DNA of 64,000 nt from positions 1 to 64,000 of the forward strand of contig NZ_BIFH01000023.1 of assembly GCF_003967355.1 (NCBI RefSeq). The letters run 5' to 3'. A program made the position numbers and the translations under genes. Position 1 is the stretch's first letter. Every line of letters begins with the position of its first letter. The stretch is from Embleya hyalina. Lineage in GTDB: Bacteria > Actinomycetota > Actinomycetes > Streptomycetales > Streptomycetaceae. Of this stretch, positions 15,112 to 52,683 are shown piece after piece. The notes under the pieces are model-generated. The model was not told the DNA's origin. It ran no database searches and was given only the letters and a program-made list of their open reading frames with translations.

Positions 15112-15153
15112 CCCAGGACGACCGCCTTCCGGCAAGTCGTCGGTCGTCCTGGG
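15112..15153 (-). promoter_or_regulatory. conserved-loop leader hairpin, copy A
   Basis: On the minus strand a perfect 13-bp stem encloses the 16-nt loop ACGACTTGCCGGAAGG. It ends 40 nt before the RapZ-like start codon. Copy B at 19911-19948 has the same loop with one change but a different, also perfect stem, so structure and loop are conserved independently of stem sequence. Confidence 0.6.
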
Positions 15154-15159
15154 GCGGAT

Positions 15160-15297
15160 TCAGCGGTTGGGGATCATGCAGCGGGCGTTGTGCCCGGCGG
15201 GCAGCAGGCACCCCCGCGTCGGGCAGTCGGGCTGCCGGGGCGAGCCGGGCAGGATGATCGTCACGGTGAAGTCGCCCGTGTTGTCGTGGTCGCTCAT
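15160..15297 (-). CDS. 45-aa Cys-containing AICE protein
   Basis: A short ORF starting MSDHDNTGDFTVTIILPGSP and ending RCMIPNR, with Cys in a DCPTRGCLLPAGHNARC pattern that could bind a metal. The ATG at 15297 is preceded by AAGGAG at seven bases, an excellent ribosome binding site. It lies between traB and the RapZ-like gene in the same direction. No function known. Confidence 0.65.
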   Translation of the reverse strand: MSDHDNTGDFTVTIILPGSPRQPDCPTRGCLLPAGHNARCMIPNR

Positions 15298-15329
15298 CGG
15301 CCATCTCCTTGATTACGCTGTGTAGTGGT

Positions 15330-15461
15330 GTGCGGGTATGGGTGTGCGCACGCGTGCGGGTGTGCGCACGGGCGAAAGTGCAGGTCAACGCGCGCGCGTG
15401 CGCGCGAGGGCAACAGGCGTGCGCACGGCTGCCGCACGCGTGCGCACACCTCGCCGCACGG
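15330..15461. repeat. GTGCGCAC repeat cluster after traB, candidate clt
   Basis: Four copies of the palindromic GYGTGCGCAC occur at 15342, 15360, 15417 and 15438, with GTGCGGGT twice between them and an alternating CG/GC run near 15390-15406. The cluster sits directly after the traB stop, where several Streptomyces plasmids carry the TraB-binding clt locus. The assignment is by position and repetitiveness only. Confidence 0.45.
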
Positions 15462-17540: not shown

Positions 17541-17551
17541 GATGCGTCTCC

Positions 17552-17935
17552 TCACGCCTCGAACTTGAACGCGGGCTTGACGGGCTTGGACTTGACCCCG
17601 GCGGCCTGCAACTCGGCCGCGTAGTTCTTCTGGAAGCTCGCGTACGCCTTGGCCATCGACCCGGCCGCGTACTTCAGCGCCTCCGCCGCGATGATCAGGT
17701 GCTTCGATGTGTCCTTCGCCCGCTTGCGCCCGGCTCGCCCGGCGAGCAGGGCGTCGACCGGGGCGATCTGCGACAGGACCGCGTACAACTCCTCAGCGGC
17801 CATGGCCAGTTCGAGGGAGCCGTCCCGGCAGAACAGGCGCCCGCCGTTGCAGTAGTCGCGAATGCTCTTGTTCGTCATGAACTCCGGATCACCCAGGACG
17901 TCCTGGGCCGTGCTCCTGCGCCGCTGCTGGGCCAT
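17552..17935 (-). CDS. small transfer-operon protein (127 aa)
   Basis: Begins MAQQRRRSTAQDVLGDPEFMTNKSIRDYCNGG, then a helical Ala-rich middle and a basic tail KSKPVKPAFKFEA. It ends in GTGA overlap with a possible traB start. Small proteins in this position precede TraB in many Streptomyces elements and are annotated as transfer proteins; biochemical role unknown. The ATG at 17935 has GGGAGGGG upstream. Confidence 0.75.
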   Translation of the reverse strand: MAQQRRRSTAQDVLGDPEFMTNKSIRDYCNGGRLFCRDGSLELAMAAEELYAVLSQIAPVDALLAGRAGRKRAKDTSKHLIIAAEALKYAAGSMAKAYASFQKNYAAELQAAGVKSKPVKPAFKFEA

Positions 17936-18036
17936 CGGGCCCCTCCCTCGTATGTGGTGTGAATGGTTCGAGCAGGGCTGACCCCGCTTCCCCCGCGCCC
18001 GGCCGCGACCTGCGATCCGGGCGCGAGGGGAACCGG

Positions 18037-18342
18037 TCAGAACAGTGCTGTGGTCTCGGAACGAGCCGCGCGCAGAACAGCGGCGGCCTTGCGCGCGGCG
18101 GCAGCGGCCGGGGCGTGGCAGCGCTCGCACCACGTCGTCAGCGCCGCCGGGTCCAGCCCGACCGCGACGGCGAGCGTCGTCGCGAGATCACGCGGCGCCA
18201 CGATCAACCCGTCGTGCCGGGTGCACCGGCCGCCGGTCTCCTTGTGGCGCCGTCCGCACTCCCCGGCGCACCCGCAGGTGCCGCACTCACGATCCACGAC
18301 TGATTGCCACAGGCGACCACCGATGATCGGGGGCCGGGTCAC
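18037..18342 (-). CDS. Cys-rich zinc-ribbon-like AICE protein (101 aa)
   Basis: Contains CGTCGCAGECGRRH, a further Cys near residue 40 and CERCH near residue 72, enough ligands for one or two zinc sites. A helical Ala-rich tail follows. The GTG start overlaps the DUF2637 stop (GTGA). It is conserved in feel with small AICE proteins, but no family name can be given. Confidence 0.7.
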   Translation of the reverse strand: MTRPPIIGGRLWQSVVDRECGTCGCAGECGRRHKETGGRCTRHDGLIVAPRDLATTLAVAVGLDPAALTTWCERCHAPAAAAARKAAAVLRAARSETTALF

Positions 18343-19283
18343 CGTGCACCCTCCACCAGGCTCAACCGTCCGGCGGGGGGTTCCTCACGGAACTCCTGAT
18401 AGCGCGTGGAGACCCAACCGACCGACCAGCCGCACAACTCGGCGGCGGCCCGCACTGGGTGGCCTTCCTCGAACGCGGCCCGCACGATCAGCCGGGCGCG
18501 GTCCTCGGGCAACTTGCCTTCGGCTGGATCGGCCGACAACAGCTCCAGCCGCTCTCGCCGTTCACGCTCGGCGGCCTGTCGTTCACGGTGTTCATGCTCG
18601 GCCCGCCGTTGTTCATCCTCGCGTTCGCGCCGCTCACGCTCGGCCGATTCGGCCCGCTCCCGGGCCCGCTCCGCATCGCGCTCCTCACGGCGCGCGCGCT
18701 CGGCGACCTCGGCGCGTTCACGCTCGATCGCCGCGTCGTGCTCACGCTGTTCACGAGCTACCCGAGCCTCGTACTCGCGCTCCTCACGACGTGCGCGCTC
18801 AGCCGCCTCGCGACGCTCGACCTCGGCCCGCTCTCGCTCTGCGCGCTCGGCCCGTTCACGTTCGTTCAACGCGACCTGCGCCGCCGTGATCGCGCGCCGG
18901 TAGGCGAGTCCCGTCTCGGCGGTGACGATCAGCAGCAGCGGCGCGACCGCGTGAACCGCAGCCCCCACCATGTCCTTGCGCAACGCGCTCTCGGCGACGT
19001 TCAGGGCGAGGGTCATCGCGCCGGTCATCCACCGGAGCACGATCGGCCACGCGCCGCCACCCTCGCCCAGCCGGGCCAAGGTGGCGTCCAGGCGCACCAC
19101 GATCACCACGGCGGCATCGACCACCAACGGCAGGATCGGCGCGGTCCACGCCCACTCGGGCGGGGTGTGCGCGGCGGCCAACGGGGTGACCGTCAGCACC
19201 GAATAGAGCATCGCCCCGGCGACGATCGCCCACGTCCCCACGCTCAACGCCTGCTCCGCCGAACGCACTTGAGCGGTGTTCAT
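18339..19283 (-). CDS. DUF2637 membrane protein, SpdB-like mycelial spread
   Basis: 314 residues. Four hydrophobic segments (about 14-37, 48-63, 80-97 and 105-125) form the DUF2637 domain. Residues ~138-255 are an uninterrupted Glu/Arg/Ala coiled coil or single alpha-helix (repeats such as ERERAEVERREAAERARR). The last ~55 residues resemble a helix-turn-helix (AFEEGHPVRAAAELCGWSVGWVSTRYQEF). DUF2637 proteins of Streptomyces plasmids are spread (Spd) proteins thought to help DNA pass along the mycelium through septa. It is coupled by 4-base overlaps on both sides. Confidence 0.88.
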   Translation of the reverse strand: MNTAQVRSAEQALSVGTWAIVAGAMLYSVLTVTPLAAAHTPPEWAWTAPILPLVVDAAVVIVVRLDATLARLGEGGGAWPIVLRWMTGAMTLALNVAESALRKDMVGAAVHAVAPLLLIVTAETGLAYRRAITAAQVALNERERAERAERERAEVERREAAERARREEREYEARVAREQREHDAAIERERAEVAERARREERDAERARERAESAERERREREDEQRRAEHEHRERQAAERERRERLELLSADPAEGKLPEDRARLIVRAAFEEGHPVRAAAELCGWSVGWVSTRYQEFREEPPAGRLSLVEGAR

Positions 19284-19561
19284 CGACCGCCCCCGTCCAC
19301 CCGACGGACCCGGATCGCGGCGAGCAACCGCACCCGCGACGTGTCGTCACCGGGCACCTCGGCGTCCTCGGACCACTCCCACTCGGCCCCGTCCGTGAAC
19401 ACGAACCCGAGCGCGTTCACCACCCGTGAACGCTGCGCGATGGTCGGCACCACGGCACCCCGGGGGAACCGGTGCTCCGGCCACAGGGACACCCGCCCCG
19501 GCATCGCCACGAACACCCGCCAACGCCCCTCGCGAAACGACATCAACGCCTTGCACGTCAT
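19280..19561 (-). CDS. AICE hypothetical protein (93 aa)
   Basis: Begins MTCKALMSFREGRWRVFVAMPGRVSLWPEHRFPRG and has a beta-rich look with FVFTDGAEWEWSED in the middle. It overlaps the upstream gene (ATGA) and the DUF2637 gene (ATGA), so it belongs to the same transfer operon. No family recognised. Confidence 0.7.
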   Translation of the reverse strand: MTCKALMSFREGRWRVFVAMPGRVSLWPEHRFPRGAVVPTIAQRSRVVNALGFVFTDGAEWEWSEDAEVPGDDTSRVRLLAAIRVRRVDGGGR

Positions 19562-19878
19562 GCCGCCCGCACCCCCTCGAAACCGTCGAAGGTCTCCCGG
19601 GCCCGCACGGCGGCCGAGTCGAGCAGCAGCGCGGCGCACACCGCCGTGCCCGAATCCACCGCCCACAACGACGCGAACATGTCCTCGACGTGCCGGGCGA
19701 GTTCGCGATCCGTTGCCCACAGGTCGGCGAGGATGTCCCGCGCCGCATCCAACCGCGCCGCACGCTCCTGCTCGCTCTCCCCGGGCTCCCCGTCGAACAG
19801 AGCCCAGTCGATGCCGAGCGCCAACTCGGCGAACTCGGCAATCGTGGCCGCGTGGCGACCAGCGACAATGCTTCTCAC
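19558..19878 (-). CDS. first gene of transfer operon (106 aa)
   Basis: Helical acidic protein MRSIVAGRHAATIAEFAELALGIDWALF..., Ala/Glu-rich to the end. The GTG at 19878 is preceded by GGGAG at eight bases. An in-frame upstream extension reads through the conserved-loop hairpin (19911-19948), but that reading is better explained as leader RNA. Most upstream gene of the minus-strand run controlled from the divergent GntR region. Unknown function. Confidence 0.7.
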   Translation of the reverse strand: MRSIVAGRHAATIAEFAELALGIDWALFDGEPGESEQERAARLDAARDILADLWATDRELARHVEDMFASLWAVDSGTAVCAALLLDSAAVRARETFDGFEGVRAA

Positions 19879-19910
19879 GGTCGTACTCCCAGCGTCGGAG
19901 TTGCGACCCA

Positions 19911-19948
19911 CGGGGCGCCCGCCTTCCGCCAAGTCGTCGGGCGCCCCG
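19911..19948 (-). promoter_or_regulatory. conserved-loop leader hairpin, copy B
   Basis: On the minus strand a perfect 11-bp stem encloses the loop ACGACTTGGCGGAAGG, ending 33 nt before the start codon of the first transfer-operon gene. Only one of 16 loop bases differs from copy A, whereas the stem sequence is different and still fully paired. Confidence 0.6.
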
Positions 19949-20168
19949 GCACACATCGGTGTGCCCCGTCTTCAGAGACGAGTGGCCGTGACCCCCGACG
20001 CACGCGTGATGCCGCGCGCCGAGGACCAAAAACACTCGTTTCGATCTCGTTCGTCACTCTGTTGAGTTCTCAAGGACCGAGCTGTCCCGGCGCTTACAGG
20101 CGTACGGCCGAAGCCGTCTTCCCTGGCAGGTCGCGTGGTTCTGACGTGCATAGTTCTGTGGCTCACTG

Positions 20169-20238
20169 CTTCACTAGTGAGGCAGTGGTGTGACAGTAGC
20201 GCCACGGAGCGCGAGACCGCAATACCTCACTAGTGAAG
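20169..20238. promoter_or_regulatory. paired palindromic operators for the GntR regulator
   Basis: CTTCACTAGTGAGG (20169-20182) and its exact reverse complement (20225-20238) share the palindromic core TCACTAGTGA. The second lies 10 bases before ATG 20248 and 18 before ATG 20257. Together they cover the region between the divergent GntR gene and the transfer operon. GntR dimers bind such palindromes, so autoregulation and repression of transfer are likely. Confidence 0.8.
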
Positions 20239-20256
20239 TCGCCTAGGATGGCGTGC

Positions 20257-21024
20257 ATGGCCATTGATCCGACCGACCCGCGCTCTCCGTCGCGGCAGAT
20301 TGCTGATGAACTCAGGGAAGAGATCACGAGCGGGCGTCTGGCACCCGGTGACGCGCTTCCCTCGGAAAAGATGCTGGTAGGACGCTTCGGGACGGCTCCG
20401 GCCACGGCGCGGCAGGCCGTGCGGCTCCTGAAGGAAGAGGGCCTTGTGGTCGCCGAGAGGGGGAAGGGCGTCTACGTGAAGCGGCAGCCGCCCACCATCC
20501 GGCTCGGGTCCCACCGGTTCTCGCGCCAGACCCGCGCCGAAGGCAAGTCGGCCTTCGAGGCTGAGATAGAGCGGCAGGGGCTGGAATGGGGGCAAGAGGT
20601 TCTTGAACTTGCCGAAGTGCCTGCACCCGAGTGGGTCGCCGAGTGGCTTGGCGTGGATGCGGGGGCCACGGTCTTCGTGCGCCGTCGCCGCAACCTGGTT
20701 GGCGACACGCCCACTCAGCTTGCCGACAGCTACTACCGTCTCGACACCGTCGAGGACACGGCGATCCGGACGCCGGACACCGGACCGGGCGGCAGCTACG
20801 CCCGGCTCGAAGAGAAGGGGCTCACCCTTGAGCGCTTCCGGGAAGAGATCCGGATCCGGATGCCAACGCCTACCGAGGTGCAGGGGCTGCGGCTCACTCC
20901 CGGGACGCCCGTCGCCGAGCTGCGGCGCATCGCCTTCGGGGCGAGCGGGCCGCTCGAAGTGCTTGAGTCCGTGGTGTCCGGAGACAGCCACGTGTTCTGC
21001 TACGAATTCGCCGCACCCGAGTAG
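20257..21024 (+). CDS. GntR/UTRA transcriptional regulator, KorSA-like
   Basis: About 255 residues. The N-terminal GntR winged helix (SRQIADELREEITSGRLAPGDALPSEKMLVGRFGTAPATARQAVRLLKEEGLVVAERGKGVYV) is followed by a UTRA-type ligand domain ending ELRRIAFGASGPLEVLESVVSGDSHVFCYEF. In pSAM2-type elements KorSA of this family represses replication and transfer genes. The ATG at 20257 is preferred (MAIDPTDPRSPS is the domain start); ATG 20248 is possible. Operators lie directly upstream. It begins the control operon with the PP2C-like and Nudix genes. Confidence 0.9.
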   Translation: MAIDPTDPRSPSRQIADELREEITSGRLAPGDALPSEKMLVGRFGTAPATARQAVRLLKEEGLVVAERGKGVYVKRQPPTIRLGSHRFSRQTRAEGKSAFEAEIERQGLEWGQEVLELAEVPAPEWVAEWLGVDAGATVFVRRRRNLVGDTPTQLADSYYRLDTVEDTAIRTPDTGPGGSYARLEEKGLTLERFREEIRIRMPTPTEVQGLRLTPGTPVAELRRIAFGASGPLEVLESVVSGDSHVFCYEFAAPE

Positions 21025-21036
21025 ACGGGAAGAACC

Positions 21037-21789
21037 TTGCAGGTCAGCCACATCAGTGAGCCGTCGCCCGGCGGCATCAACGATGACTACATCGTGGCCA
21101 GCGAACGATTCGTCATCGTGCTCGACGGCGCGACCGCGAACGGCCTGGACACCGGTTGCATCCACGACGTCCCATGGGTGGTGAGCCGGCTAGCCGCCCA
21201 ACTTTCGGCCCGGCTCATCACGGACGACGGTGCGCCGCTCAGCGAGATCCTGGCGGACGGCATCGCCGCTGTCTGCGACCTTCACGCAGGTACGTGCGAC
21301 CTGACCAACCCGAACAGCCCGTCGACCACCGTCGCCCTGCTCCGCAACCAGGGCGGCTTGGTCGAATACCTGGTGCTGTGCGACTCGCCCATCGTCATCG
21401 AGACGACGTCCGGCGACATCCAGTTGATCAATGACGATGCGACCGCCCATCTCCCCGGCTACACCCGCGAGGTTCTGCAAGAGGTTCGCAACCAGCCGGG
21501 CGGCTTCTGGGTCGCGAGCACGAAGCCCGAAGCTGCCAAGCACGCGGTCATCGGTTCGATTCCGGCGAGCGATGTTCGGCGCGCGGCAGTGATGACCGAC
21601 GGAGTCTCACGTCTCTTCGAGCGGTACGACTGGGAGCTGAGTCGTCTGCTCGACAGCCTCGTATCCACCGGCCCTGCGGCGCTGGTGGAGGCGGTTCGGG
21701 ACGCCGAGCGGCAGACCCCACCTGGGAAGTTCAGAGGCAAGGCGCACGACGATGCCACCGTTGCCCTCTGTGCTCACTTCGGGGATTAA
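21037..21789 (+). CDS. PP2C-family phosphatase-like protein
   Basis: 250 residues. PP2C motifs are visible in order: NDDYIVASERFVIVLDGAT (metal-binding DG), a central SPSTTVALL strand, VMTDGVSRLF (TDG in the SDG position) and a final HDDATVALCA (DDxT), so catalytic residues look intact. The start is a TTG at 21037 with GGGAAG upstream. It lies 12 bases after the GntR gene and 3 before the Nudix gene. Its presence in the control operon suggests a signalling step in element regulation or immunity; the substrate is unknown. Confidence 0.8.
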   Translation: MQVSHISEPSPGGINDDYIVASERFVIVLDGATANGLDTGCIHDVPWVVSRLAAQLSARLITDDGAPLSEILADGIAAVCDLHAGTCDLTNPNSPSTTVALLRNQGGLVEYLVLCDSPIVIETTSGDIQLINDDATAHLPGYTREVLQEVRNQPGGFWVASTKPEAAKHAVIGSIPASDVRRAAVMTDGVSRLFERYDWELSRLLDSLVSTGPAALVEAVRDAERQTPPGKFRGKAHDDATVALCAHFGD

Positions 21790-21792
21790 GTC

Positions 21793-22242
21793 ATGGTTCA
21801 TCCCGCAAGGCACTCCGTTAGCGTTGCTGGCGTCATCGTGGACGATGCGGGGCGCTGCTTGCTAACGAAGCGACAGGACAACGGCCAGTGGCAGGCACCC
21901 GGTGGTGTGCTTGAGCTGGCTGAGTCCATCCCCGATGGGCTGCGCCGTGAGGTGCGTGAAGAGACTGGTCTCGAAGTCGAGCCGCTGGCTCTGACCGGGG
22001 TCTACAAGAACATGCCGCTTGGTGTCGTTGCGCTGGTCTTCCGCTGCCGGCTTGTGGGCGGTGAGCTGTCGACCAACGATGAGGTAGCCGAGTTTCGTTG
22101 GGTGGATCCGAGCGCCGTCGACGAACTGATGGTCGAAGCCTTCGCAGTCAGAGTGACTGATGCGCTGAGAAGTGCCAGTTCCCCCGCGATTCGATCCCAC
22201 GATGGGGAGAGCGTGACCCTCGAATCTCGCAATGCGCTTTGA
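21793..22242 (+). CDS. pif: Nudix protein, Pif-like conjugal immunity factor
   Basis: 149 residues with a complete Nudix box: Gly38, Glu44 and REVREETG (52-59). Pif of pSAM2 is a Nudix-motif protein that prevents redundant transfer between carriers; position after a KorSA-like gene supports this assignment. The ATG follows the PP2C stop closely, so translation is coupled. Generic Nudix hydrolase activity (for example on oxidised nucleotides) remains the alternative. Confidence 0.8.
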   Translation: MVHPARHSVSVAGVIVDDAGRCLLTKRQDNGQWQAPGGVLELAESIPDGLRREVREETGLEVEPLALTGVYKNMPLGVVALVFRCRLVGGELSTNDEVAEFRWVDPSAVDELMVEAFAVRVTDALRSASSPAIRSHDGESVTLESRNAL

Positions 22243-22329
22243 CGCACCGGAGAGGTCGATGTGATGTCCGTCATAGTAGAACATGGTAGAAGTGCGTAAC
22301 TCGAAGCCCTAAAGGCCATGATGGGCATC

Positions 22330-22357
22330 GAACGTTCTCGAACGTTCCGGAACGTTC
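22330..22357. promoter_or_regulatory. triple GAACGTTC palindrome, 10-bp period
   Basis: Three copies of the 8-bp palindrome GAACGTTC at 22330, 22340 and 22350, spaced exactly one helical turn. Located 88 bases after the Nudix stop and 159 before the 48-aa ORF. It looks like a cooperative operator. It lacks the spacing of an actinobacterial LexA box. Confidence 0.55.
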
Positions 22358-22515
22358 CACGATTGTGCCCTTGCTCGATTTCCGGTCTGTGTCGTCACGA
22401 CTGAAAGTCCCGGGTTTTAGCTGTACTCTCTTCTCCAGCACAACCCTTCTCCTGCCGGGTGTTCGTGACCACCCATGGGGCTTACGAGCCCCGGTCTCGG
22501 GAGGAGGTGACTTCG

Positions 22516-22662
22516 TTGGCGATGCCAAAGTGGCCACGGCGACGAAACGTGCGCAGACATGCCGCTCGGGCCGTTCTTGCGGTCCGTAAGTGGGGTCCAA
22601 TGGCTTACGCGCTCACGCGTGGACTGTGGGACCTCTATGACGGCAGCGACCCCGGTAACTGA
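22516..22662 (+). CDS. small basic protein (48 aa)
   Basis: Reads MAMPKWPRRRNVRRHAARAV and ends LWDLYDGSDPGN: a very basic N-terminal half with a helical hydrophobic patch. The TTG at 22516 stands eight bases after AGGAGG, a perfect Shine-Dalgarno; ATG 22522 is the alternative. Terminator-like stem-loops follow. A separate promoter with the GAACGTTC array upstream suggests an independently regulated transcript. Unknown function. Confidence 0.6.
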   Translation: MAMPKWPRRRNVRRHAARAVLAVRKWGPMAYALTRGLWDLYDGSDPGN

Positions 22663-22742
22663 CATAAGTCGGTTACCAGGGTCACTGTGCACCGTGCAGC
22701 GCGTTGGCCCCGTCTCTGGTTGGCTTGCCATAGGGCGGGGCC
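22648..22742 (+). terminator. two terminator-like stem-loops
   Basis: A 12-bp stem with one mismatch (22648-22659 with 22672-22683), its loop holding the stop codon of the 48-aa ORF, and a 7-bp G/C stem (22706-22712 with 22736-22742) followed by TTCGT. They mark the end of the rightward control transcript. Confidence 0.6.
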
Positions 22743-22745
22743 TTC

Positions 22746-23094
22746 GTGCGTCTTAGATGCCGTTTAAACACTACCACTTCTATTGCTTACCTCTATGCGT
22801 TCTTCTATCGCGGTGGCTATCGCCGTATGAAGCCATGGTTCTATCGCGCCGTGAGAGTCCAAGTACCGCAGTGTTCGTCTATGCGCTATTGGCTGGGCAT
22901 CCGGTATCGCAGCCTTCGCGTCGGCGATGACGTATCTCCGACCATGGTGCGCCGTTGCGAGCTGAGCGTGGACCCGCACCGGTCTCAGTTGCGGTCTCAT
23001 TCGTGGGGGTTCAGAGGCGTTCAGCGTGGCCCGCTCGGGGCGGCTCCGGGCAGGTGGGGAGCGCTCTGGCCTGCGGTGAACGGCCACACGCAGA
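22746..23094. other. non-coding region with CTAT iterons beside attR
   Basis: No gene is supported here; base composition is lower in GC than the element average. CTATNGC-type heptamers (CTATTGC, CTATGCG, CTATCGC, GTATCGC) occur at 22780, 22793, 22805, 22817, 22841, 22879 and 22904, several exactly 12 bp apart. The arm-type pair lies at 22981-23002. Possible roles are integrase/Xis binding, TraB recognition or origin; none can be proven from sequence. Confidence 0.5.
22981..23002. repeat. arm-type integrase site, attR side
   Basis: GGTCTCAGTT, two bases (GC), then GGTCTCATTC; same orientation as the attL-side pair. It ends 93 bases before the attR core start. Confidence 0.6.
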
Positions 23095-23156
23095 CCTCGA
23101 AAGCGTGTGATGGTGCAAGCTATCCGTGGGTTCAAATCCCACCGCTACCGCTCTTG
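23095..23156 (+). repeat. attR core repeat
   Basis: 62 bases identical to 8512-8573, carrying the displaced 3' half of tRNA-Ser(CGA) without its 5' half. Confidence 0.95.
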
Positions 23157-43893: not shown

Positions 43894-44084
43894 GGTGCGT
43901 CCTCCTGGTTGCGAGTCACCTCGACGACGCGGCCACGAGGGCGTCGCCGCAGGTCAACCATCCGATCTCGGGTGGATCGTCGGCAACGGCCGTTTCCGCA
44001 AGGCGCGTTAACCTGACGGTTAACGTCACGGCCGTGACCCGGGGAGGCACCGGCTGCGTCGTATGCTCCGCGCCACCGCGCGCT

Positions 44085-44717
44085 TCAGGCCGCGGCGGTG
44101 ACCGGGGCGTCCCGGCGGACCCGCGTCACGGTGTCGGCGCGGGTGAGGGGGACGAGGGCGACCCAGATCAGGGCGGCGCCGATCGGGAGGAGGTTCAGGT
44201 CGGCCATGATGGCCACGAAGCCCACGAGGACCAGCACCGGGGCGGCCGCCGAGGCGAGGCCGCGCCGGGGGCCGACGACCGCGTACTGGACGAAGAGCGC
44301 GAGCAGGCCCAGCATGAAGAACACCGGGCCGATCTCGTAGAACGCCTGCGGGATCACGGCGGGGACGTCGGCGTACCGGTCGGACAGCGCGCTCTTCTCG
44401 GCCGCGTCGGCCGCCTTCAGCCCGACGACGATGTCGACGACGGCGACGCGGACGAAGGCGGCCAGCCCGACGGCGGCCACGGTGGTGAGGGCGCCGGCGG
44501 TGATCCGGCGGGCCCGACCGCCGCCTTCGGTGTCGAGGATCCGGCGTCGCAGTCCCGCGATCACCACGCCGTACAGGAGCAGCGACCCGAGGAAGAGCAG
44601 GTGGCCGACGGTCCAGGCGGGGCCGGGACCGTGCTGCCCGTCGATGCCGTCGATGAGGCGGACGACACCGTAGGCGCCCATGAGGGCGGGGGCGAGGTGG
44701 AAGGCGGTCCTGGTCAT
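44085..44717 (-). CDS. multi-pass membrane protein
   Basis: 210 residues with about five or six hydrophobic segments and polar stretch LKAADAAEKSALSDRYADVPAVIPQAFYEIG in the middle. Start ATG 44717 follows GGGAG. An upstream in-frame start is less likely. It lies downstream of a two-component system in the same direction across a repeat-rich gap. Family not recognised. Confidence 0.75.
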   Translation of the reverse strand: MTRTAFHLAPALMGAYGVVRLIDGIDGQHGPGPAWTVGHLLFLGSLLLYGVVIAGLRRRILDTEGGGRARRITAGALTTVAAVGLAAFVRVAVVDIVVGLKAADAAEKSALSDRYADVPAVIPQAFYEIGPVFFMLGLLALFVQYAVVGPRRGLASAAAPVLVLVGFVAIMADLNLLPIGAALIWVALVPLTRADTVTRVRRDAPVTAAA

Positions 44718-44873
44718 GAGCGGTTCTCCCGGGATTCGGAACGGGGTGTTTCCCATGTCCTCAATCCTGTGGAGAACGACGGTTCCGGAGATCGCCGCCG
44801 GCGGTGATCTCCGGGTATGGCCGGCGCGGGGGAGAAGGGGCCGCCCTGCTCCCCCGCGCGACCGATGGCCGTG

Positions 44874-44968
44874 GGTCCGTCGGTCCGTCGGTCCGTCGGT
44901 CCGTCGGTCCATCGGTCCGGTGCGCCCGGGCGCCCGATGCACCCGGTGCGCCCGGTACACCCGGTGCG
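44874..44968. repeat. octamer and 9-10-mer tandem repeats
   Basis: Five tandem copies of GGTCCGTC (last with one change) from 44874 to 44913, followed by an imperfect CCCGGTGCG-type array to 44968. Intergenic between a response regulator stop and the membrane-protein start. Confidence 0.75.
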
Positions 44969-44986
44969 CGCCCTGCCGAAGGTCGG

Positions 44987-45640
44987 TCAGGCCGGCTCGA
45001 TCAGCCGGGTTTCGTACGCGGCGATGACGGCCTGCACCCGGTCGCGGAGGCCGAGCTTGGACAGCACGTTGCTCACGTGCGTCTTGACCGTGTGCTCGCT
45101 GACGACCATGGCGGTGGCGATCTCCGCGTTCGACAGACCGCGGCCGAGCATGCGCAGGGTCTCGCGTTCGCGCGCGGTGAGCACGGCCAGGCGTTGGGAC
45201 TCGGTCGCGCCGGCGCGCGGCCGGTTGCGGGCGATGTCCGAGATCAGCCGTCGGGTGACGGCGGGCGCGAGCAGCGACTCCCCCGCCGCGACCACCCGGA
45301 CCGCGTGCACGAGATCGTCCCGCCGCACGTCCTTGAGCAGGAAGCCGCTCGCCCCCGCGTAGAGGGCGTCGTAGACGTAGTCGTCCCGGCCGAAGGTGGT
45401 GAGCATGATCGCGCGGGCCGGGGTCTCGGCACACACGATCTTCGCGGCCTCGATGCCGTCCAGGCCCGGCATGCGGATGTCGAGCAGGACCACATCGGGG
45501 ACGTGCTCGCGGACGGCGGTGACGGCGGCGGTACCGTCCGCCGCCTCGCCCACGACCTCGATGTCGGGCTGCGCGTCCAGGATCATCGCGAAGCCGCTGC
45601 GCACCAGTTCCTGGTCGTCGGCGAGCACCACTCGGATCAC
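44987..45640 (-). CDS. LuxR/NarL response regulator, third pair
   Basis: 217 residues. ADDQELVRSGF, phospho-acceptor in LLDIRMPG, FLLKDV and LuxR HTH (LTARERETLRMLGRGLSNAEIATAMVVSEHTVKTHVSNVLSKLGLRDR). ATGA overlap with the kinase gene. Confidence 0.95.
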   Translation of the reverse strand: MIRVVLADDQELVRSGFAMILDAQPDIEVVGEAADGTAAVTAVREHVPDVVLLDIRMPGLDGIEAAKIVCAETPARAIMLTTFGRDDYVYDALYAGASGFLLKDVRRDDLVHAVRVVAAGESLLAPAVTRRLISDIARNRPRAGATESQRLAVLTARERETLRMLGRGLSNAEIATAMVVSEHTVKTHVSNVLSKLGLRDRVQAVIAAYETRLIEPA

Positions 45641-46833
45641 GAGGCCACCGCCGCGGCCGGGGTGTAGGGCAGACGCGCGTGTACGCGGAACCCGCCTTCG
45701 GGCAGCGGACCGGCCTCGGCCGTTCCGCCGCAGGCGAGAGCACGTTCGCGGATGCCGATCAGGCCGTCCCCGCCGCGCCGCCAGCCCGCGGGATTCGCTT
45801 CGCCGCCGCCCCTGCCGTCGTCGGTCACAGTGATCTCCAGTTCGTCGCCGGTCCAGCTCAGCCGTACCTCCGCCGTGGAGGCGCCGGCGTGCTTGACCGT
45901 ATTGGTGAGGGCTTCCTGGACGATGCGGTACGCGGCCAGGTCCGCGTCGGCGGGCAGGTCGCGGCGGTCCCCTTCGACGACGAGTCGCACCCGGACGTGC
46001 GTGCGGTCGACGTGTTCGATGAGCTGGGTGATCGTGTCGACGGTCGGTTGGGGTGCGCGGGCACCGACGTCCTGCTCCTGGTCGTCCTTGAGGACGCCCA
46101 GCATGCGGCGCAGTTGCTCCATCGCGTCGCGTCCGGCCTCCGCGATCGCGTCGAAGGAGCGTTCGGCCCGGTCGGGGTCGGTTCGCACCACCACGGGTCC
46201 GGCCTCCGCCTGGACGATCATGATGCTGACCGCGTGCGCGAGTATGTCGTGCATGTCGCGGGCGATGCTCGCGCGCTCCTCGGCCGCCGCCCGCGCGGCC
46301 TCGGCCTCACGTTCACGTTCCAGCTGGGCGGAACGTTCCATCAACGCATTCGACCTCTCTCGAGCGGCGCGGGCGAGCATGCCCATGAGGAACGCCGTGA
46401 CGGGCAGGAGCAGCGTGAACATGAACTGCCCCGCGTTGTTGTCCTTGACCAGCAGCGCGCCGAACGGGGTGGTGGCCGTGAGCGTGCCGATGAACCCCCA
46501 GCGCTGCCACCGGTGCCGCCCGCGGTCGGCCAGCGTGTAGATCGCCACCAACGCGCCGTACTGCAACGTCTGCCCGGGCCGGTCGTGCAACGACACGGCC
46601 GTGGCGAAGAAGGCGACGATCAACGTGACCGCGAACGGCGCCCGGCGACGCCAGATCAACGGCACGACCGTCCCGAGGTTGACCACGAAGCCGAGCACCG
46701 TCACATCGGCCGCGGTCGAGAACGGCACGAACACCGCCGCGGCGACCGCCCCCGCGACCAGCACATCCAAGAGCCGACTGTCCCCACGCACAGCCCGCAA
46801 CCGCACGACAACGCCGCCGAACCAATCTGACAT
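45637..46833 (-). CDS. sensor histidine kinase, third pair
   Basis: 398 residues with an N-terminal membrane domain (several helices to about residue 150), short coiled linker, H-box IARDMHDILAHAVSIMIVQAEAG and HATPase motifs (EALTNTVKHAGAS, DDGRGGGEANPAGWRRGGDGLIGIRERALACGG). ATG 46833 encodes MSDWFGGVVV. Typical NarL-type kinase of unknown signal. Confidence 0.92.
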   Translation of the reverse strand: MSDWFGGVVVRLRAVRGDSRLLDVLVAGAVAAAVFVPFSTAADVTVLGFVVNLGTVVPLIWRRRAPFAVTLIVAFFATAVSLHDRPGQTLQYGALVAIYTLADRGRHRWQRWGFIGTLTATTPFGALLVKDNNAGQFMFTLLLPVTAFLMGMLARAARERSNALMERSAQLEREREAEAARAAAEERASIARDMHDILAHAVSIMIVQAEAGPVVVRTDPDRAERSFDAIAEAGRDAMEQLRRMLGVLKDDQEQDVGARAPQPTVDTITQLIEHVDRTHVRVRLVVEGDRRDLPADADLAAYRIVQEALTNTVKHAGASTAEVRLSWTGDELEITVTDDGRGGGEANPAGWRRGGDGLIGIRERALACGGTAEAGPLPEGGFRVHARLPYTPAAAVAS

Positions 46834-47003
46834 CCAGTCAGTATGTGCCCCGAACCCCCACCGAACCTCAGTCGCCAGAGGGATTCCCCACCCCCGACAC
46901 ACGACCAACCGTCGCGCACCGAAGCCCGGCATCGCTCCGGCAACCACACGATCGGTGTCGGCGTGCCGTGGGATCCTGAGCGGCGGCGGGGAGGGAGCGC
47001 GCG

Positions 47004-47984
47004 TTGCCGAAGAGCAGGGTTCGCAAGAAGGTGGGGCGGAAGGCCGGGCGGAATACCTCACGCGAGGTGAAACCGGTGGCGCTCTACCACGACATGGCCG
47101 TATACGAGAATTTCGAGCGCTGCGCACCACGCATATTCGAGATGCTCCACAAAGCACAGCAGGGTGCGCCAGGGGCGCCCCGGGTGTTGTTCTTCGATGT
47201 GCAAGGCCATCGGAACAACGAGGGCGACTATGACCGCGATGCCTGGGAGATGCTCAAGGATTTTCTGCCCAGGAAGGTCCTCCCTTATCTGACCGAGCTC
47301 AGCACTCCGCAGTATGTGATGAAGAATCAGCGTGGGCAGGACGACCTGGTCCCGGAGCAAGTGTTCGTGGGCTACCCGGAAGGGGAGGAGAAGTCGTTCT
47401 GGTACGACATCGACTCTCTGCCCTTGCGCCCGCGGGAGACCGAGCAGAGCAGTCGCAGAAGCTCCCCGTCCAAGCAGTCGATCATGGAGTACCTGGGGAT
47501 CGCCGACGAGTGCCTGATCTGCTGGGGCTCACCGGTCGAACGGGCGCACGTCGTTCCCGCTTCCCTGGGCGGCTCGATGGACGTGCGGAACTTTGCCCTG
47601 CTCTGCGTGGAGCACCATCGACAGGCCCCGGACATTGCCGACGCCGAGGCATTCTGGGCCTGGGTCGACTATGCCGAGTTGCGTGATTCGGGCAGCAAGT
47701 GGCAGCGAGCACCCGAGGAAGTAAAACGATGGGTGGAGGCCGGCGGCGGCCGGATCGAACCCGTGGACCGTGAGGAGACGGCCTTCCTGGCCGCCGTGGC
47801 GTTCGAACTTCGCCACCTCTACAACTGGTCCGACGAGGACTTCACCAAGGTGTCCTGGGCGTTTCTCGAGGAGTATCACCACGTGCTGGACCGCGCGACC
47901 GGGCGGCACTTCGGTGTCGAGCGGAAGGTCGCCACCCACGCGTGGGCCTACCACGTGGCTCTGCTGAGACTCACCCGATCCTGA
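47004..47984 (+). CDS. HNH endonuclease domain protein
   Basis: 326 residues. A very basic start (MPKSRVRKKVGRKAGR) leads into an unrecognised N-terminal domain, then an HNH core: CLICWGSPVERAHVVPASLGGSMDVRNFALLCVEHH, with CxxC and CVEHH as metal ligands. The C-terminal ~110 residues are helical and unassigned. TTG 47004 follows GGGAGGGAG. Codon use is less GC-biased than neighbours, so recent transfer is likely. It could be a restriction- or defence-type nuclease; no partner gene is visible. Confidence 0.75.
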   Translation: MPKSRVRKKVGRKAGRNTSREVKPVALYHDMAVYENFERCAPRIFEMLHKAQQGAPGAPRVLFFDVQGHRNNEGDYDRDAWEMLKDFLPRKVLPYLTELSTPQYVMKNQRGQDDLVPEQVFVGYPEGEEKSFWYDIDSLPLRPRETEQSSRRSSPSKQSIMEYLGIADECLICWGSPVERAHVVPASLGGSMDVRNFALLCVEHHRQAPDIADAEAFWAWVDYAELRDSGSKWQRAPEEVKRWVEAGGGRIEPVDREETAFLAAVAFELRHLYNWSDEDFTKVSWAFLEEYHHVLDRATGRHFGVERKVATHAWAYHVALLRLTRS

Positions 47985-48156
47985 CCACGGGTGCGACGTC
48001 GGCGAGCCGGTCCCCGCACAGGGTGGGAGAAGTGCGAGGCCAAGGTCGAGTGCCCCTCGACCCCACCCGCAATCCCTCTGCCACCAACACTTCGCCGAGC
48101 AGGTCCAGGGCCTGTCCCCAGGCGTACGGCGCCGGTGTGGCCGACCGGCCCGAAGC

Positions 48157-48525
48157 TCACGAAACCGCTCGCGCCGCTCGGCGACCTCGCCGCTCGCGCA
48201 ACCCGCCCTCCTCGACGAGCGTGAGCATGGGCTCGCCGGGGACCCCGACCATGACCACCACGAACCGGCTCCACGCGTCCGCGAGGTTGTTGCCCGCCCG
48301 ATAGTGGATGACGTCGCCGCCCGGCTCCCGGAACGCCTCACCGGCGCGAATGATCCGTGCGGGCTCGCCTTCGACCATGTAGCCGAAGACCGGGCCCGAG
48401 CGCCTGTGCGGCGGCGTGCCCGCGTCGCCCGGCGGCAATCCGACCGTCATCGTCATCACTTCGACCGACGTCGGCAGGAATGGCGCAGTCTGATGGAGGA
48501 GGGTGGTCGGTACGGCCCCCCGCAC
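48157..48525 (-). pseudogene. cupin domain protein with internal deletion
   Basis: The frame reads like a small cupin: VEVMTMTVGLPPGDAGTPPHRRSGPVFGYMVEGE followed directly by PARIIRAGEAFREPGGDVIHY. Family members have an additional strand (about 8-10 residues) between EGE and EGEP, and PPHRHSGP instead of PPHRRSGP. Both a metal-ligand His and a beta-strand appear lost, as if by recombination between EGE-coding repeats. The N-terminal start is unclear. It is probably non-functional; sequencing is assumed correct. Confidence 0.55.
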
Positions 48526-48620
48526 ATTTCGGTCACAGCCGAAACGGTAGGCGCGAGCTGGCCCAAGCGAGGGATCCACTCACCCCCGAGCCCGCCGGAC
48601 CGGCCGCGCGACACGCAAGA

Positions 48621-48739
48621 ACCGACAACGACGTCGCCCCAGCCGCATCGCGACCGGGGGCAACGTTTTGCCTGTTCAGGCTGGCGGAGGATACGAGATT
48701 CGAACTCGTGAGGAGGGTGAACCCAACACGCTTTCCAAG
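48621..48739. repeat. distal att copy with 3' half of tRNA-Ser(GGA)
   Basis: Matches 52534-52652 with four or so differences. It ends one base past the anticodon loop (minus-strand sense), then diverges. The tRNA 5' half is absent, so this is no functional tRNA. Confidence 0.85.
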
Positions 48740-49094
48740 GGGTCATCCGCTGATCCGGCGACGCTCGCCAACGTCCTGACATGCGGTGGAGTACGCGGCC
48801 GTCAGCCTTGCGAACAGCGGTGTACGCCGGTGAATGCAACCAGAACTGCAACCAGGGTGATGACTCTTGATTGCGTTGATCAGGCTGACAACCTCCCCTG
48901 CACCCTTGGGGTTCTCGGGCCCGCGCCTTACGACTCGGTGGTGCTGCGGGCGGTCTGTGGCAGCTTTGGGATGGAGGGGCGTACAGCGCCACTGCCGGCG
49001 GGTGAAGGCGGCCGCCGTGCCCAGCGGGTCGAGTCTCCCCATGCCCGTTGCGGACAATCCCACGCCGGTACACGTGAGAGCGCATCCGGTTCGG
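48740..49094. other. island end region without gene
   Basis: About 355 bases with no supported gene. It contains the arm-type repeat at 48832-48853. No integrase remnant was recognised in any frame. Confidence 0.5.
48832..48853. repeat. arm-type site of island, distal side
   Basis: On the minus strand GGTTGCAGTT, two bases (CT), then GGTTGCATTC. It matches the AICE attR-side pair at 16 of 22 positions including all the flanks of each unit, and lies 93 bases from its core, the same distance as in the AICE. Confidence 0.6.
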
Positions 49095-49844
49095 TCACGT
49101 CGCCTGGGCGAGTCGGACGGCGTCGGGGCCGGCTGGGAAGCGCAGTCGGCCGGTCGTGTCGTGGGCGGCGCGCCAGACCGTCTCGGCGACGTCGCTCTCC
49201 TGGGTGAACAGATCCTGGCCGGTGAAGTCGGCCATGGCCTTCCTCGCGAACGGCGCGTAGGGCGGCGGGACCAGTTCGTCCAGCGGCCCGCCGTTCATGG
49301 CCTTGCCCGCGAAGTTCGTCGTCAGACAGGCGCCCGGCTGGACCGTCTTGGCCCGTACGCCGAAGGGTGCGAGTTCGAGCGCGAGGGACGAGGTGAACCC
49401 CTCGACGGCCGCCTTGCTCGCCTTGTAGACGGCCGAGAGGGGCATGTCGCCCAGCACCACGCTGGAGGTCACGTTGACCACCACGCCGGATCCGCGCTCG
49501 CGGAACTGGGGCAGCACCGCCTGCGTCGTGGCCATCACGCCGAACGTATTGGTCTCGAAGACCTCCCGCACGCGGGCCATCGGGGTGCCCTCGAACACGC
49601 TGATCGAGGGGACACCCGCGTTGTTGACCAGGGCGTCGATCGGCCCGGCGAGCTCGAGCGCGGCGGTGATCGTGTCGGGCTTGGTCACGTCCAGTTCGAC
49701 GATGCGCAGCCGGTCCGACTCGGGCAGGACGTCCGGGCGCCGGCTGCGCATCGTCGCGATGACGTTCCACCCCTGTGCGTGGAAGTGGAGGGCGGTCGCG
49801 CGGCCGTAGCCGGACGAGGTCCCGGTGATCAGAACGGTGTTCAT
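49095..49844 (-). CDS. short-chain dehydrogenase/reductase
   Basis: 249 residues. Rossmann TGTSSGYG near the N-terminus, NNAG, and catalytic Ser (VTSSVVLG) with YKASK. Classical SDR using NAD(P)(H). ATG 49844 begins MNTVLITG; longer frames add no domain. The AraC regulator follows upstream in the same direction. Confidence 0.92.
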   Translation of the reverse strand: MNTVLITGTSSGYGRATALHFHAQGWNVIATMRSRRPDVLPESDRLRIVELDVTKPDTITAALELAGPIDALVNNAGVPSISVFEGTPMARVREVFETNTFGVMATTQAVLPQFRERGSGVVVNVTSSVVLGDMPLSAVYKASKAAVEGFTSSLALELAPFGVRAKTVQPGACLTTNFAGKAMNGGPLDELVPPPYAPFARKAMADFTGQDLFTQESDVAETVWRAAHDTTGRLRFPAGPDAVRLAQAT

Positions 49845-50001
49845 GCTGTGCCCCTTGCGATGTGGTGGGATCCGCGGACTGGAATGTTCATTCCTGCTCG
49901 GCGGTGGTTTCGGTGATCCCATTGAATCGCTCTGAACTGGGAAAACAGTAGAACTATCCTCGCCCGTACTTGCACGATTCTCCCGTTCTGCCCAACCGTG
50001 C

Positions 50002-50907
50002 TTACAGCATGATGCTTGCCGGGGTGCGGGCGGCGTCCCGCAGGCGGACCGCGTCCCGGCCCGGGGGCGCGCCGAACCGGCGGCGGTACTCGCGGCTGAA
50101 CTGCGACGGGTTGTCGTAGCCGACGCGCCGGCCGACCCCGGCGACGTCGCCCGGGTGGGTGGCCAGCAGCAGTCGTGCCTCCTGGAGCCGGATCTGCTTC
50201 TGGAACTGGATGGGGCTCATCGCGGTCACCGCCTGGAAGTTGCGGTAGAACGCGGAGGCGCTCATGCCGGAGAGGCGGGCCACGTCCTCGACCCGGAAGG
50301 GCTCGGCGTAATGCTCACGGATCCAGCGTGCGGCACGTGAGACATGACTGAGACCGCTGTCGGCGATGCCCAGTTGGCGCACCGTCGCACCCTGCTCGCC
50401 GGTGATCACGCGCCACAGGATCTCGCGTTTGACCAGCGGGGCCAGTACGGCGCGGTCGCGGGGTTCGTCGAGCAGGCGCAGCAGCCGGACCACCGCGTCC
50501 AGGAGGGCGGGCGGGGCGTTGCTGACGGCGATCCCCGATGGCGGGCCGCCGCCGGTGCGGGGCATGTCTCCGGGGCCAGCCTGCAGCAGGAGCTCGGCAA
50601 CGGCGGACGGTTCGAGAACGAGTCCGAAGCCCAGCGCGGGGCGGCCCGGGTCGGCCTGGGTGAACTGTCCGGTGACCGGCAGGTCGACGGAGGCGACCAG
50701 GTACTGCCCCGGCCCGTACTCGTAGACCCGATCGCCCAGCGCGAGCCGTTTGGCGCCCTGGGCGATGACCGCCAGGACCGTGCCGGACATGGAGGGCGCG
50801 GGCGGGTCGGGCCGGTCGACCTTCGAGATCAGGACGCCGTCGACGGCGGTGGTCCAGTCGGGGCGGGCGTGCCGGGCCAGGAGGTCGCGGAACTCATCGA
50901 GGGACAT
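50002..50907 (-). CDS. AraC-family transcriptional regulator
   Basis: 301 residues. An AraC-N type cupin sensor (residues ~20-150) followed by two HTHs (ARWIREHYAEPFRVEDVARLSGMSASAFYRNFQAVTAMSPIQFQKQIRLQEARLLL... and GVGRRVGYDNPSQFSREYRRRFG). Divergent from the ABM-like/hydrolase genes and upstream of the SDR on the same strand, so it likely controls this cassette. Confidence 0.93.
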   Translation of the reverse strand: MSLDEFRDLLARHARPDWTTAVDGVLISKVDRPDPPAPSMSGTVLAVIAQGAKRLALGDRVYEYGPGQYLVASVDLPVTGQFTQADPGRPALGFGLVLEPSAVAELLLQAGPGDMPRTGGGPPSGIAVSNAPPALLDAVVRLLRLLDEPRDRAVLAPLVKREILWRVITGEQGATVRQLGIADSGLSHVSRAARWIREHYAEPFRVEDVARLSGMSASAFYRNFQAVTAMSPIQFQKQIRLQEARLLLATHPGDVAGVGRRVGYDNPSQFSREYRRRFGAPPGRDAVRLRDAARTPASIML

Positions 50908-51051
50908 GCGCCCATTTCAGCAGCAATGCGCGAAAGCACTCCCGGGTTCGCGAGGATCGTGCAAGAGCGGGAGAGGATCATTCTAACGTTTCCGCAGGTC
51001 AGGGGCATTGAATGGAGGAAGTCCACTCCACCGAAACGAAGAAGGCTCCCC

Positions 51052-51369
51052 ATGATTGCCAACTACGGATTCAACGCCACGCTGACCGCCGCTCCCGGGA
51101 TGGGCGGCCGGCTGGTCGATCTGCTGTCGACCGGCCTGGACGAGGGCAGCCCCGGCGCGAGCGAGCACTGCGTCGTCTACCTGGTCTCGCGTTCCGCCTC
51201 CGACCCCGACGTCGTACACGTCACCGAGGGATGGAACAGCGAGGAGGACCACCACCGGACGTTCGCCGGCGAGGCCGCCCAGGCGATCGTGGCGCGGATC
51301 GGCGAACTGCTGGCCAAGGAGCCGGAGAACACCGACTACGTCCCGATCTGCGGCAAGGCCGCCTTCTAG
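51052..51369 (+). CDS. ABM-type monooxygenase-like protein
   Basis: 105 residues (MIANYGFNATLTAAPGMGGRLVDLLS...VHVTEGWNSEEDHHRTFAGEAAQ...LLAKEPENTDYVPICGKAAF), matching the small dimeric alpha/beta antibiotic-biosynthesis-monooxygenase/YgiN fold. Quinol oxidation or reactive-carbonyl handling is typical. First gene of the divergent rightward unit. Confidence 0.8.
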   Translation: MIANYGFNATLTAAPGMGGRLVDLLSTGLDEGSPGASEHCVVYLVSRSASDPDVVHVTEGWNSEEDHHRTFAGEAAQAIVARIGELLAKEPENTDYVPICGKAAF

Positions 51370-51468
51370 GCCATGGGGAGGCCGCCCCGGCGCCTGCCGA
51401 GGCGGCCCTCGCTCCACCCGGAATCCCGCCCGAACGCCCCCGCACCACCCCGCGAAAGGCCGACGACC

Positions 51469-52428
51469 ATGACCACAGCGCGCCCCGCCCTGGACCCCGA
51501 ACTTCGCGTCCTCCTCTCCGACATGCCGCTGATGTCCGAGCTCGACCCGGAATTGCTCGCACAACTGCGGCAGTACCCCTCGACGCCGGTCGAGTCCCTG
51601 CTCGCCGACCGGCGGGTCGACCGGCGCGAGGTCACCGTGCCCGCCAAGGACGGCACCGCGATACCCCTGTCGGTCTTCACCCCCGGGAGCGCCGACCGCA
51701 CCACCGCCGCGCCCTGCGTGTACTGGATCCACGGCGGCGGCATGGTGATGGGCGACCGTTTCTCGCAGATCGACATCCCCCTGGAGTGGCTCGACGAGTT
51801 CGGCGCGGTCGTGGTGTCCGTGGACTACCGGCTGGCGCCCGAGGCCACCGGCACCGTCCCCGTCGACGACTGCTACCAGGGACTGCTCTGGGTCGCCGAA
51901 CACGCCGAGGAACTGGGCGTCGATCCCGCCCGGATCATCGTCGCGGGAGCCAGCGCGGGCGGCGGCCTGGCGGCCGGTGTCACCCTGCTGGCCCGCGACC
52001 TCGGCACTCCGGCGATCGCCGCGCAGATACTGAACTGCCCCATGCTCGACCACCGCAACACCAGCACCTCCAGCCTCCAGTACTCCGGCGGCCCCGGCGT
52101 CTGGACCCGCGAGATGAACGACTTCGGCTGGCGCTGCGTTCTCGGCGACCTCACCGATGACGACGTGCCCGCGTACGTCTCACCCTCGCTGGCCGACGAT
52201 CTCTCGAACCTGCCGACCACCTACATCGACACCGGCTCCGCCGAAGTCTTCCGCGACGAGGACACCGACTACGCCACCCGGATCTGGGCGGCCGGCGGAC
52301 AGGCCGAGCTCCACGTCTGGGCAGGCGGTTTCCACGGCTTCGACGCCCTGTACCCGCAGGCGCACATCTCGGCCACGGCCCGCCGCACCCGCACCGACTG
52401 GCTCGCCCGGCTCCTACACGCGGCATAA
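51469..52428 (+). CDS. alpha/beta hydrolase, HSL-type esterase
   Basis: 319 residues. Oxyanion HGGGMVMG, nucleophile GASAGGG and catalytic His in GGFHGFD, with the acid in the SAEVFRDED region, mark the hormone-sensitive-lipase branch. It sits 99 bases after the ABM-like gene and is probably in its operon. Substrate unknown. Confidence 0.9.
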   Translation: MTTARPALDPELRVLLSDMPLMSELDPELLAQLRQYPSTPVESLLADRRVDRREVTVPAKDGTAIPLSVFTPGSADRTTAAPCVYWIHGGGMVMGDRFSQIDIPLEWLDEFGAVVVSVDYRLAPEATGTVPVDDCYQGLLWVAEHAEELGVDPARIIVAGASAGGGLAAGVTLLARDLGTPAIAAQILNCPMLDHRNTSTSSLQYSGGPGVWTREMNDFGWRCVLGDLTDDDVPAYVSPSLADDLSNLPTTYIDTGSAEVFRDEDTDYATRIWAAGGQAELHVWAGGFHGFDALYPQAHISATARRTRTDWLARLLHAA

Positions 52429-52514
52429 CGCCGCAACCCGCGGCGCCGCCGGTACGCCCGACACCGACGCGGCGTGCGAAGGCCGGGAACGGGAGCGAGG
52501 GGCACATGCGCTGC

Positions 52515-52536
52515 AACCGAGACCGAAACTGAGACC
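52515..52536. repeat. arm-type site of island, tRNA side
   Basis: On the minus strand GGTCTCAGTT, two bases (TC), then GGTCTCGGTT: one mismatch in 22 with the AICE pair at 8629-8650. It starts 63 bases from the tRNA end, against 62 in the AICE. Confidence 0.65.
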
Positions 52537-52652
52537 GACAACGACGTCGCCCCCGGCCGCATGGCGACCGGGGGCAACGTTTTGCCTGTTCAGGCTGGCG
52601 GAGGATACGAGATTCGAACTCGTGAGGGGGTGAACCCAACACGCTTTCCAAG
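52534..52652. repeat. tRNA-proximal att copy
   Basis: Covers the 3' half of tRNA-Ser(GGA) and 62 bases beyond, including the terminator-like stem 52549-52556 with 52568-52575. Repeats 48621-48739. Confidence 0.85.
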
Positions 52653-52683
52653 CGTGCGCCCTAGGCCACTAGGCGAATCCTCC
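52596..52683 (-). tRNA. tRNA-Ser(GGA)
   Basis: Acceptor GGAGGAT/ATCCTCC with discriminator G, anticodon loop TTGGAAA (anticodon GGA), long variable arm, T-arm ACGAG-TTCGAAT-CTCGT, and CCA encoded at 52596-52598. 3' half shared with the distal att copy. Confidence 0.96.

Follow-up and report, generated by a model that had tools for sequence, protein, structure and literature searches.

The stretch of DNA analysed here (hereafter the window) comprises 64,000 nucleotides of Embleya hyalina (contig NZ_BIFH01000023.1, positions 1 to 64,000) and carries, behind a tRNA-Ser(GGA) gene, an island (48739-52652) with a copy of the 3' half of that tRNA at each end. Very probably this island is a module of the cis-mobilizable element (CIME) type, devoid of an integrase and bounded by attachment (att) sites, and the sole unit with clear boundaries that this strain retains from a system of tandem arrays at tRNA-Ser(GGA) that is common in the family Streptomycetaceae. 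CIMEs are defined as elements that have lost their integration and transfer genes and kept attL and attR (PMC5704250). On its sequence features the island fits this definition, and the view taken in a preliminary description of the window, that of a CIME-like island with att ends of the type found in actinomycete integrative and conjugative elements (AICEs), is supported: Pfam and NCBIfam searches of its genes revealed none for integration or transfer, and the cores and both arm pairs are kept with the spacing of the AICE present in the same window. That description had likewise seen no int, rep or tra gene inside, and none was found within 48740-52533; the island is therefore not itself an AICE, which should contain int, rep and an FtsK-type tra gene, as does the element at 8512-23156 with its set of int, xis, TraB and Prim-Pol.

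The 119-bp direct repeats said to start in the anticodon loop of tRNA-Ser(GGA) are borne out by alignment, 48621-48739 and 52534-52652 being identical in 116 of 120 aligned columns, with two one-base indels. Each end of the island holds, as previously noticed, a tandem pair of GGTYKCA-type arms like those of the AICE; the proximal arms do lie at distances of 116 and 117 bp, counted from the start of the core to that of the arm, with 22-mers that differ at one base. Only the distance from core to distal arm has to be corrected, from 93 to 95 bp in both island and AICE. An arm pair 95-96 bp ahead of a tRNA-Ser(GGA) core is the distal mark of array modules, and the island has it (48835-48853 relative to 48739), together with a CATGTCAGGACG box that corresponds to the family consensus CAGGTCAGGAC. 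Within the 12.05-Mb genome, pairs of the form GGT(CT/TG)CA-N5-GGT(CT/TG)C(A/G) number four, and each lies at an att site of the island or the AICE, which answers the question whether such arms are common elsewhere in the chromosome: they are not. A looser arm pattern has further matches in the whole genome, most of them to CG-rich variants; its reversed control yields many as well. We considered the whole 119 bp as att core and rejected it, because other modules have only the tRNA part, about 57 bp, in common and the palindrome varies; the core is this ∼57-bp tRNA 3' half, the other ∼62 bp of the repeat being a spacer and palindrome that are carried by the module and vary between modules. In the left copy of the repeat we probably see where an older adjacent module, its arms now decayed, had its proximal end. 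Its palindrome (48621-48681) is almost identical to the proximal palindrome of the island, unlike the left neighbour in Embleya scabrispora, a similarity that may reflect gene conversion or a second island copy present in the past.

The same organization extends through the family. A stricter version of the distal arm pattern has matches in 124 of 298 family genomes (0 with the reversed control), often clustered within tens of kilobases, and outside the family it was found in 9 of 137 genomes, never with more than two matches. Among 61 family genomes sampled for the tRNA, 43 had one or more extra matches to it, mostly starting at nucleotide 33, in the anticodon loop, and the other 18, with a single match, appear empty. 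The loci of 15 genomes, picked for many arm matches or for kinship and hence biased to large arrays, were studied together with the window; a module was taken to be the stretch between consecutive core copies, and cores and arms were called by score thresholds. tRNA-Ser(GGA) heads the array in the window and in all 13 chosen genomes in which it falls within the fetched DNA, and the chromosome upstream of it can be aligned in the pairs compared. In total, the 16 genomes contain 81 modules, in one orientation throughout and up to 13 per array. A full integrase, sought with a profile of this integrase family and, in six genomes, also with Pfam, is present in six modules only, of 13.5-37.8 kb, five of which immediately follow the tRNA, the sixth being next to one of them. 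The remaining 75 have a median length of 3.15 kb, the smallest measuring 0.83 kb. By these criteria most modules have no recombinase, and the position directly behind the tRNA is often taken by an AICE whose integrase is intact. The array integrases match the AICE integrase hidden Markov model (HMM), and in the array stretches of the six genomes nothing exceeded the cut-off for PF00589 (Phage_integrase) apart from the AICEs at the head, nor was there any match to PF00239 (Resolvase). Integrase fragments persist in 7 of the 75 integrase-less modules, several at the proximal end, where int of a complete AICE ends, and some modules have C-terminal int stubs there. In genome G099 the integrase of the third module is split into two frames (L155 7101-8393); the module next to the tRNA, the first of the array, holds the intact one (L176). 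The cargo is diverse and differs module by module: toxin-antitoxin genes (PIN, YoeB, Phd), type I restriction-modification, AbiLi- and SduA-like proteins, H+-pyrophosphatase, sigma factors and two-component systems.

As read from these junctions, a module starts with a tRNA 3' half, which restores the gene, followed by its own version of the palindrome, and ends with a half-site of about 115 bp ahead of the next core. A perfect stem of at least 10 is found at 55 of 97 junctions, as compared with 2 of 400 random windows. The distal half-site consists of the arm pair, phased boxes and a CAGGTCAGGAC box, the core following 95-96 bp on from the arms; the arm pair is present at 75 of 83 junctions, 66 times at one exact spacing, and the consensus of 59 sites reads GGTctCAGTTcTGGTctCATTCAcCccCGTcCa..cGTtCa...CAGGTCAGgAC...TTGGAAAGCGTG. 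The three boxes behind the arms are about one helical turn apart, a spacing often seen in excisionase sites. Proximal arms are another matter: all 6 integrase-bearing modules have a proximal pair, versus 17 of the 75 integrase-less ones, and both pairs are present in 6/6 versus 14/75 (Fisher p = 1.2e-4), the island of the window being among the 14. They are also commoner in first modules (10/14) than in later ones (13/67). In AICEs of the window clade, the proximal arm pair either overlaps the stop codon of int or comes shortly after it (window 8629-8650; L102-L110), so that a deletion of int easily takes the arm pair too. The arms read CGTCTCA in the clade of AICEs using tRNA-Ser(GGA) and AGTCTCA in Amycolatopsis AICEs.

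Comparison between arrays revealed five sets of modules homologous over more than 85% of their length, two of which stand in opposite order in G058 relative to G062 and G099. One module of 3.14 kb has three copies in one array and two in another, and some of these resemble a copy from the other genome more than they resemble one another. A further module is 98.4% identical between G148 and G036, two species whose chromosomes near the locus are about 80-94% identical, and its homology begins and ends at the att sites. Since modules recur among genomes with different neighbours and in different order, it is the att-to-att unit that moves, and these alignments establish that such units have moved over evolutionary time. 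The 3.14-kb module encodes a WXG100-like protein of 425 amino acids and two partners (L156 5761-8293, L160 1991-4523, L172 9017-11561, L173 14249-16778). Another att-bounded module, 1.3 kb long, encodes a Phd-like antitoxin together with a small partner and is found in different surroundings in E. scabrispora and in Streptomyces sp. SID3343 (L049 4358-5694; L053 2807-4141).

At this point we may propose how modules would be moved. Int and Xis of an AICE would bind the arm pairs and the phased boxes, and strands would be exchanged within the 7-nt anticodon loop, TTGGAAA at the island. Single modules, or blocks of neighbours, would be excised as circles and could re-insert at another core or the tRNA itself; from cell to cell they would be carried by the AICE, either alone or as a composite of AICE and module. 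Mobilization of the island by AICE Int/Xis at present is plausible. The only candidate helper in the strain is the AICE at tRNA-Ser(CGA), whose integrase is the genome's sole close relative of the integrases using tRNA-Ser(GGA). Relatives of this integrase use one or the other of the two tRNAs; the proximal arms of island and AICE are near-identical, and so too the anticodon stems are the same (CACGC/GCGTG), the loops, TTGGAAA and CTCGAAA, differing at 2 of 7 positions. Help in trans is therefore conceivable, also because what a tyrosine recombinase requires is a match between the two overlaps; that this AICE does help the island in trans is a suggestion to which we would give about one chance in three.

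Within the genus, E. scabrispora DSM 41855 (G001) has the island from att to att at 95.3% DNA identity, as the third module of an array, two more att-bounded modules standing between it and the intact tRNA. The preliminary description had asked whether relatives carry the four cargo genes at this place without att repeats; in E. scabrispora they are again att-bounded at tRNA-Ser(GGA). It had also proposed to look for an AICE at this tRNA in related genomes, and such AICEs were found in the genus and in the family; in Streptomyces sp. SID3343 (G003) the integrase of this AICE shares 58% identity with the integrase of the AICE in the window. Among the genus relatives no empty site with a homologous left joint was found, extra core copies being present in all four genomes.

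How firmly can the island then be called a CIME-type module? A number of points weigh against it. Its identity to the E. scabrispora copy is near that of the chromosome (95.3% versus about 90% in the flank, with blocks of 93-98%), which fits vertical descent without recent movement. It contains no recognizable int stub, the integrase at hand targets a different tRNA-Ser (CGA) from its own, and the arm pairs at its two ends differ in sub-type (GGTCTCA and GGTTGCA). A matching sub-type at both ends was entertained as a functional requirement and not upheld, as integrase-bearing elements also mix GGTCTCA and GGTTGCA. One could suppose that the island is a dead remnant, i.e. a former AICE that has lost int, rep and tra and has become fixed chromosome with immobile att scars. 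We regard this as a possibility of some substance, though not a probable one: a divergence like that of the chromosome is what it predicts, the E. scabrispora copy has a damaged proximal arm pair and is thus without this site, and the C-terminal int stubs of other modules exhibit a route of decay. In the window strain, on the other hand, the two cores, the two arm pairs and all the boxes have remained intact; the reading frames are open, and three of the four genes show mostly silent base changes. Moreover, G002, the closer relative by flank identity (94.5%, against 89.7% for E. scabrispora), has other modules at the locus, including one for type I restriction-modification, and lacks the island, which must therefore have been lost or have moved at least once; and other integrase-less modules clearly do move.

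Two further explanations seem to us very improbable. The first would have the 3' end of the tRNA duplicated by illegitimate or homologous recombination around an unrelated operon. The fact that the four-gene operon is found in many Streptomycetaceae genomes away from att sites, and is thus not a gene set of a mobile element, is in agreement with this. It does not account for arm pairs at fixed spacing at both ends, which number only four in the genome, for extra tRNA copies that start repeatedly at position 33 of the anticodon loop across the family, or for the homology of shared modules ending at att sites; arm pairs and arrays in relatives in the main already refute it. The other, equally improbable, is that the module encodes a novel recombinase of its own and is an autonomous integrative element. 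The 105-aa protein, for which neither Pfam nor NCBIfam gave a family, leaves some room for it, but cargo differs from module to module, some modules are just 0.8-1.3 kb long, no tyrosine or serine recombinase was found in the integrase-less modules tested, and the other three products of the island (short-chain dehydrogenase/reductase, AraC-family regulator, hydrolase) belong to metabolism or regulation.

Coordinates of the island, its att sites and the AICE are collected in Table 1. All or most of the four-gene operon is found in about 20 other Streptomycetaceae genomes at 75-85% DNA identity. The homology does not extend beyond the coding ends, and in the 18 such loci that were read there is neither a core nor an arm pair. 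The operon as a mobile element in itself was accordingly rejected, and it appears as an ordinary chromosomal operon that was taken into an att-bounded unit in this strain. To the left of the island, 44063-48620 holds a two-component system, an HNH-like protein of 326 amino acids (47004-47984) and a fragment resembling a cupin; the segment yielded no additional core copy and is probably an older, decayed part of the array. Synteny with G002 ends at about 44062, so that the entire stretch 44063-52595 is variable.

Table 1. Features of the island, its target tRNA gene and the AICE in the window.
Feature	Position	Strand	Evidence or remark
tRNA-Ser(GGA), target gene	52596-52683	-	ARAGORN and Rfam RF00005
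tRNA-side core copy (3' half of tRNA-Ser(GGA))	52596-52652	-	
Right copy of 119-bp repeat (core, spacer, palindrome)	52534-52652	-	alignment
Palindrome, terminator-like hairpin directly behind tRNA-Ser(GGA)	52546-52579	-	
Proximal arm pair	52518-52536	-	GGTCTCAGTTTCGGTCTCG
Alpha/beta hydrolase (hormone-sensitive-lipase type)	51469-52428	+	PF07859 6.8e-53
105-aa protein, no family found	51052-51369	+	92% identical in the E. scabrispora copy
AraC-family regulator	50002-50907	-	PF06719, PF12833
Short-chain dehydrogenase/reductase (SDR)	49095-49844	-	PF00106 5.7e-43
Distal arm pair	48835-48853	-	GGTTGCAGTTCTGGTTGCA, 95 bp ahead of core
Remaining distal half-site	48740-48834	-	phased ATTCA/GTACA/GTTCG boxes and CATGTCAGGACG box
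Left copy of 119-bp repeat	48621-48739	-	distal core 48682-48739 and palindrome
tRNA-Ser(CGA)	8481-8568	+	
AICE at tRNA-Ser(CGA)	8512-23156		att layout like that of the island
AICE cores	8512-8573 and 23095-23156		
AICE arm pair	8629-8647		GGTCTCAGTTTCGGTCTCA
AICE integrase	8645-9907	-	PF00589 2e-20
AICE excisionase	9919-10134	-	TIGR01764 2.6e-13
AICE TraB transfer protein	15462-17504	-	NF041214 1.3e-169, under that model's 800-bit cut-off
AICE arm pair	22981-22999		GGTCTCAGTTGCGGTCTCA

Neither CIMEs nor accretion are new to Streptomyces. The preliminary description had placed CIMEs in firmicutes, where they are indeed known, but they are not confined to them, as is shown by XSAM1 (PMC4891641) and TR1 (PMC8369830). 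The CIMEs of the ICESt1/ICESt3 type in Streptococcus thermophilus are similar to our modules in lacking integration and transfer genes, in keeping attL and attR, and in tandem accretion with related elements, for which mobilization in cis is predicted. They differ in that the modules of the Streptomycetaceae run to tens of different kinds, stand behind a tRNA in long arrays and mostly keep the distal arm pair only, and in that the integrase is an AICE-type tyrosine enzyme with tandem GGTYKCA arms. XSAM1, described as a CIME beside pSAM2 in Streptomyces ambofaciens, also adjoins an AICE; it is a single element of 42 kb rather than many small modules, and no array family was described there. For TR1, an integrase-less module of scab-causing Streptomyces, PMC8369830 (citing Zhang and Loria 2017) reports excision and mobilization dependent on TR2; it differs in its short att (8 bp in related islands), in its target gene and in being a single module. 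At tRNA-Arg in a Streptomyces population (PMC9513070), AICE/DAICE accretion has placed several elements and remnants at a single tRNA gene, separated by direct repeats; the functional elements number three at most, and integrase-less cargo modules were not analysed as a class. Similar in layout are the tandem ssrA islands of Dehalococcoides, separated by repeats of the 3' end of an RNA gene, 15 of 31 of which have no integration module and were proposed to be CIMEs (PMC3146451); there the recombinase is a serine enzyme of the CcrB type, the target is tmRNA, the repeat is of 20 bp and no arm-type sites are described. Our search of the literature, in which most subscription journals were not included, brought up no such arrays at tRNA-Ser and no description of arrays this large and regular or of a one-sided half-site.

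A bolder and more tentative reading, which we hold possible and would not call likely, is that tRNA-Ser(GGA) in Streptomycetaceae harbours a cassette system, functionally integron-like and built on the integrase of a conjugative element, in which recombinase-less modules with a one-sided recombination site, the conserved ∼115-bp half-site present at the distal end only, would be gathered into long tandem arrays, reordered and exchanged by Int/Xis of AICEs docking at the array head. Integron cassettes are recombinase-less, lie in one orientation behind a recombinase platform and have their site at one end, and in all these traits, on the integron side taken from general knowledge, the array modules resemble them. 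The two differ in that the array integrases are of AICE type, not IntI, and that the site is an arm pair plus a tRNA core, not attC (attC-like folding being left unscored). Because a module can be recognized by a short DNA pattern, prevalence and dependence on a helper are directly testable. If this view of the locus is right, much of the variable gene content behind one conserved tRNA of Streptomycetaceae would be organized as interchangeable modules, made up of toxin-antitoxin pairs, restriction-modification and abortive-infection-like genes, pyrophosphatases and regulators, which searches for integrase or tra genes would miss; and it would account for the spread of genes lacking mobility functions through antibiotic-producing actinomycetes.

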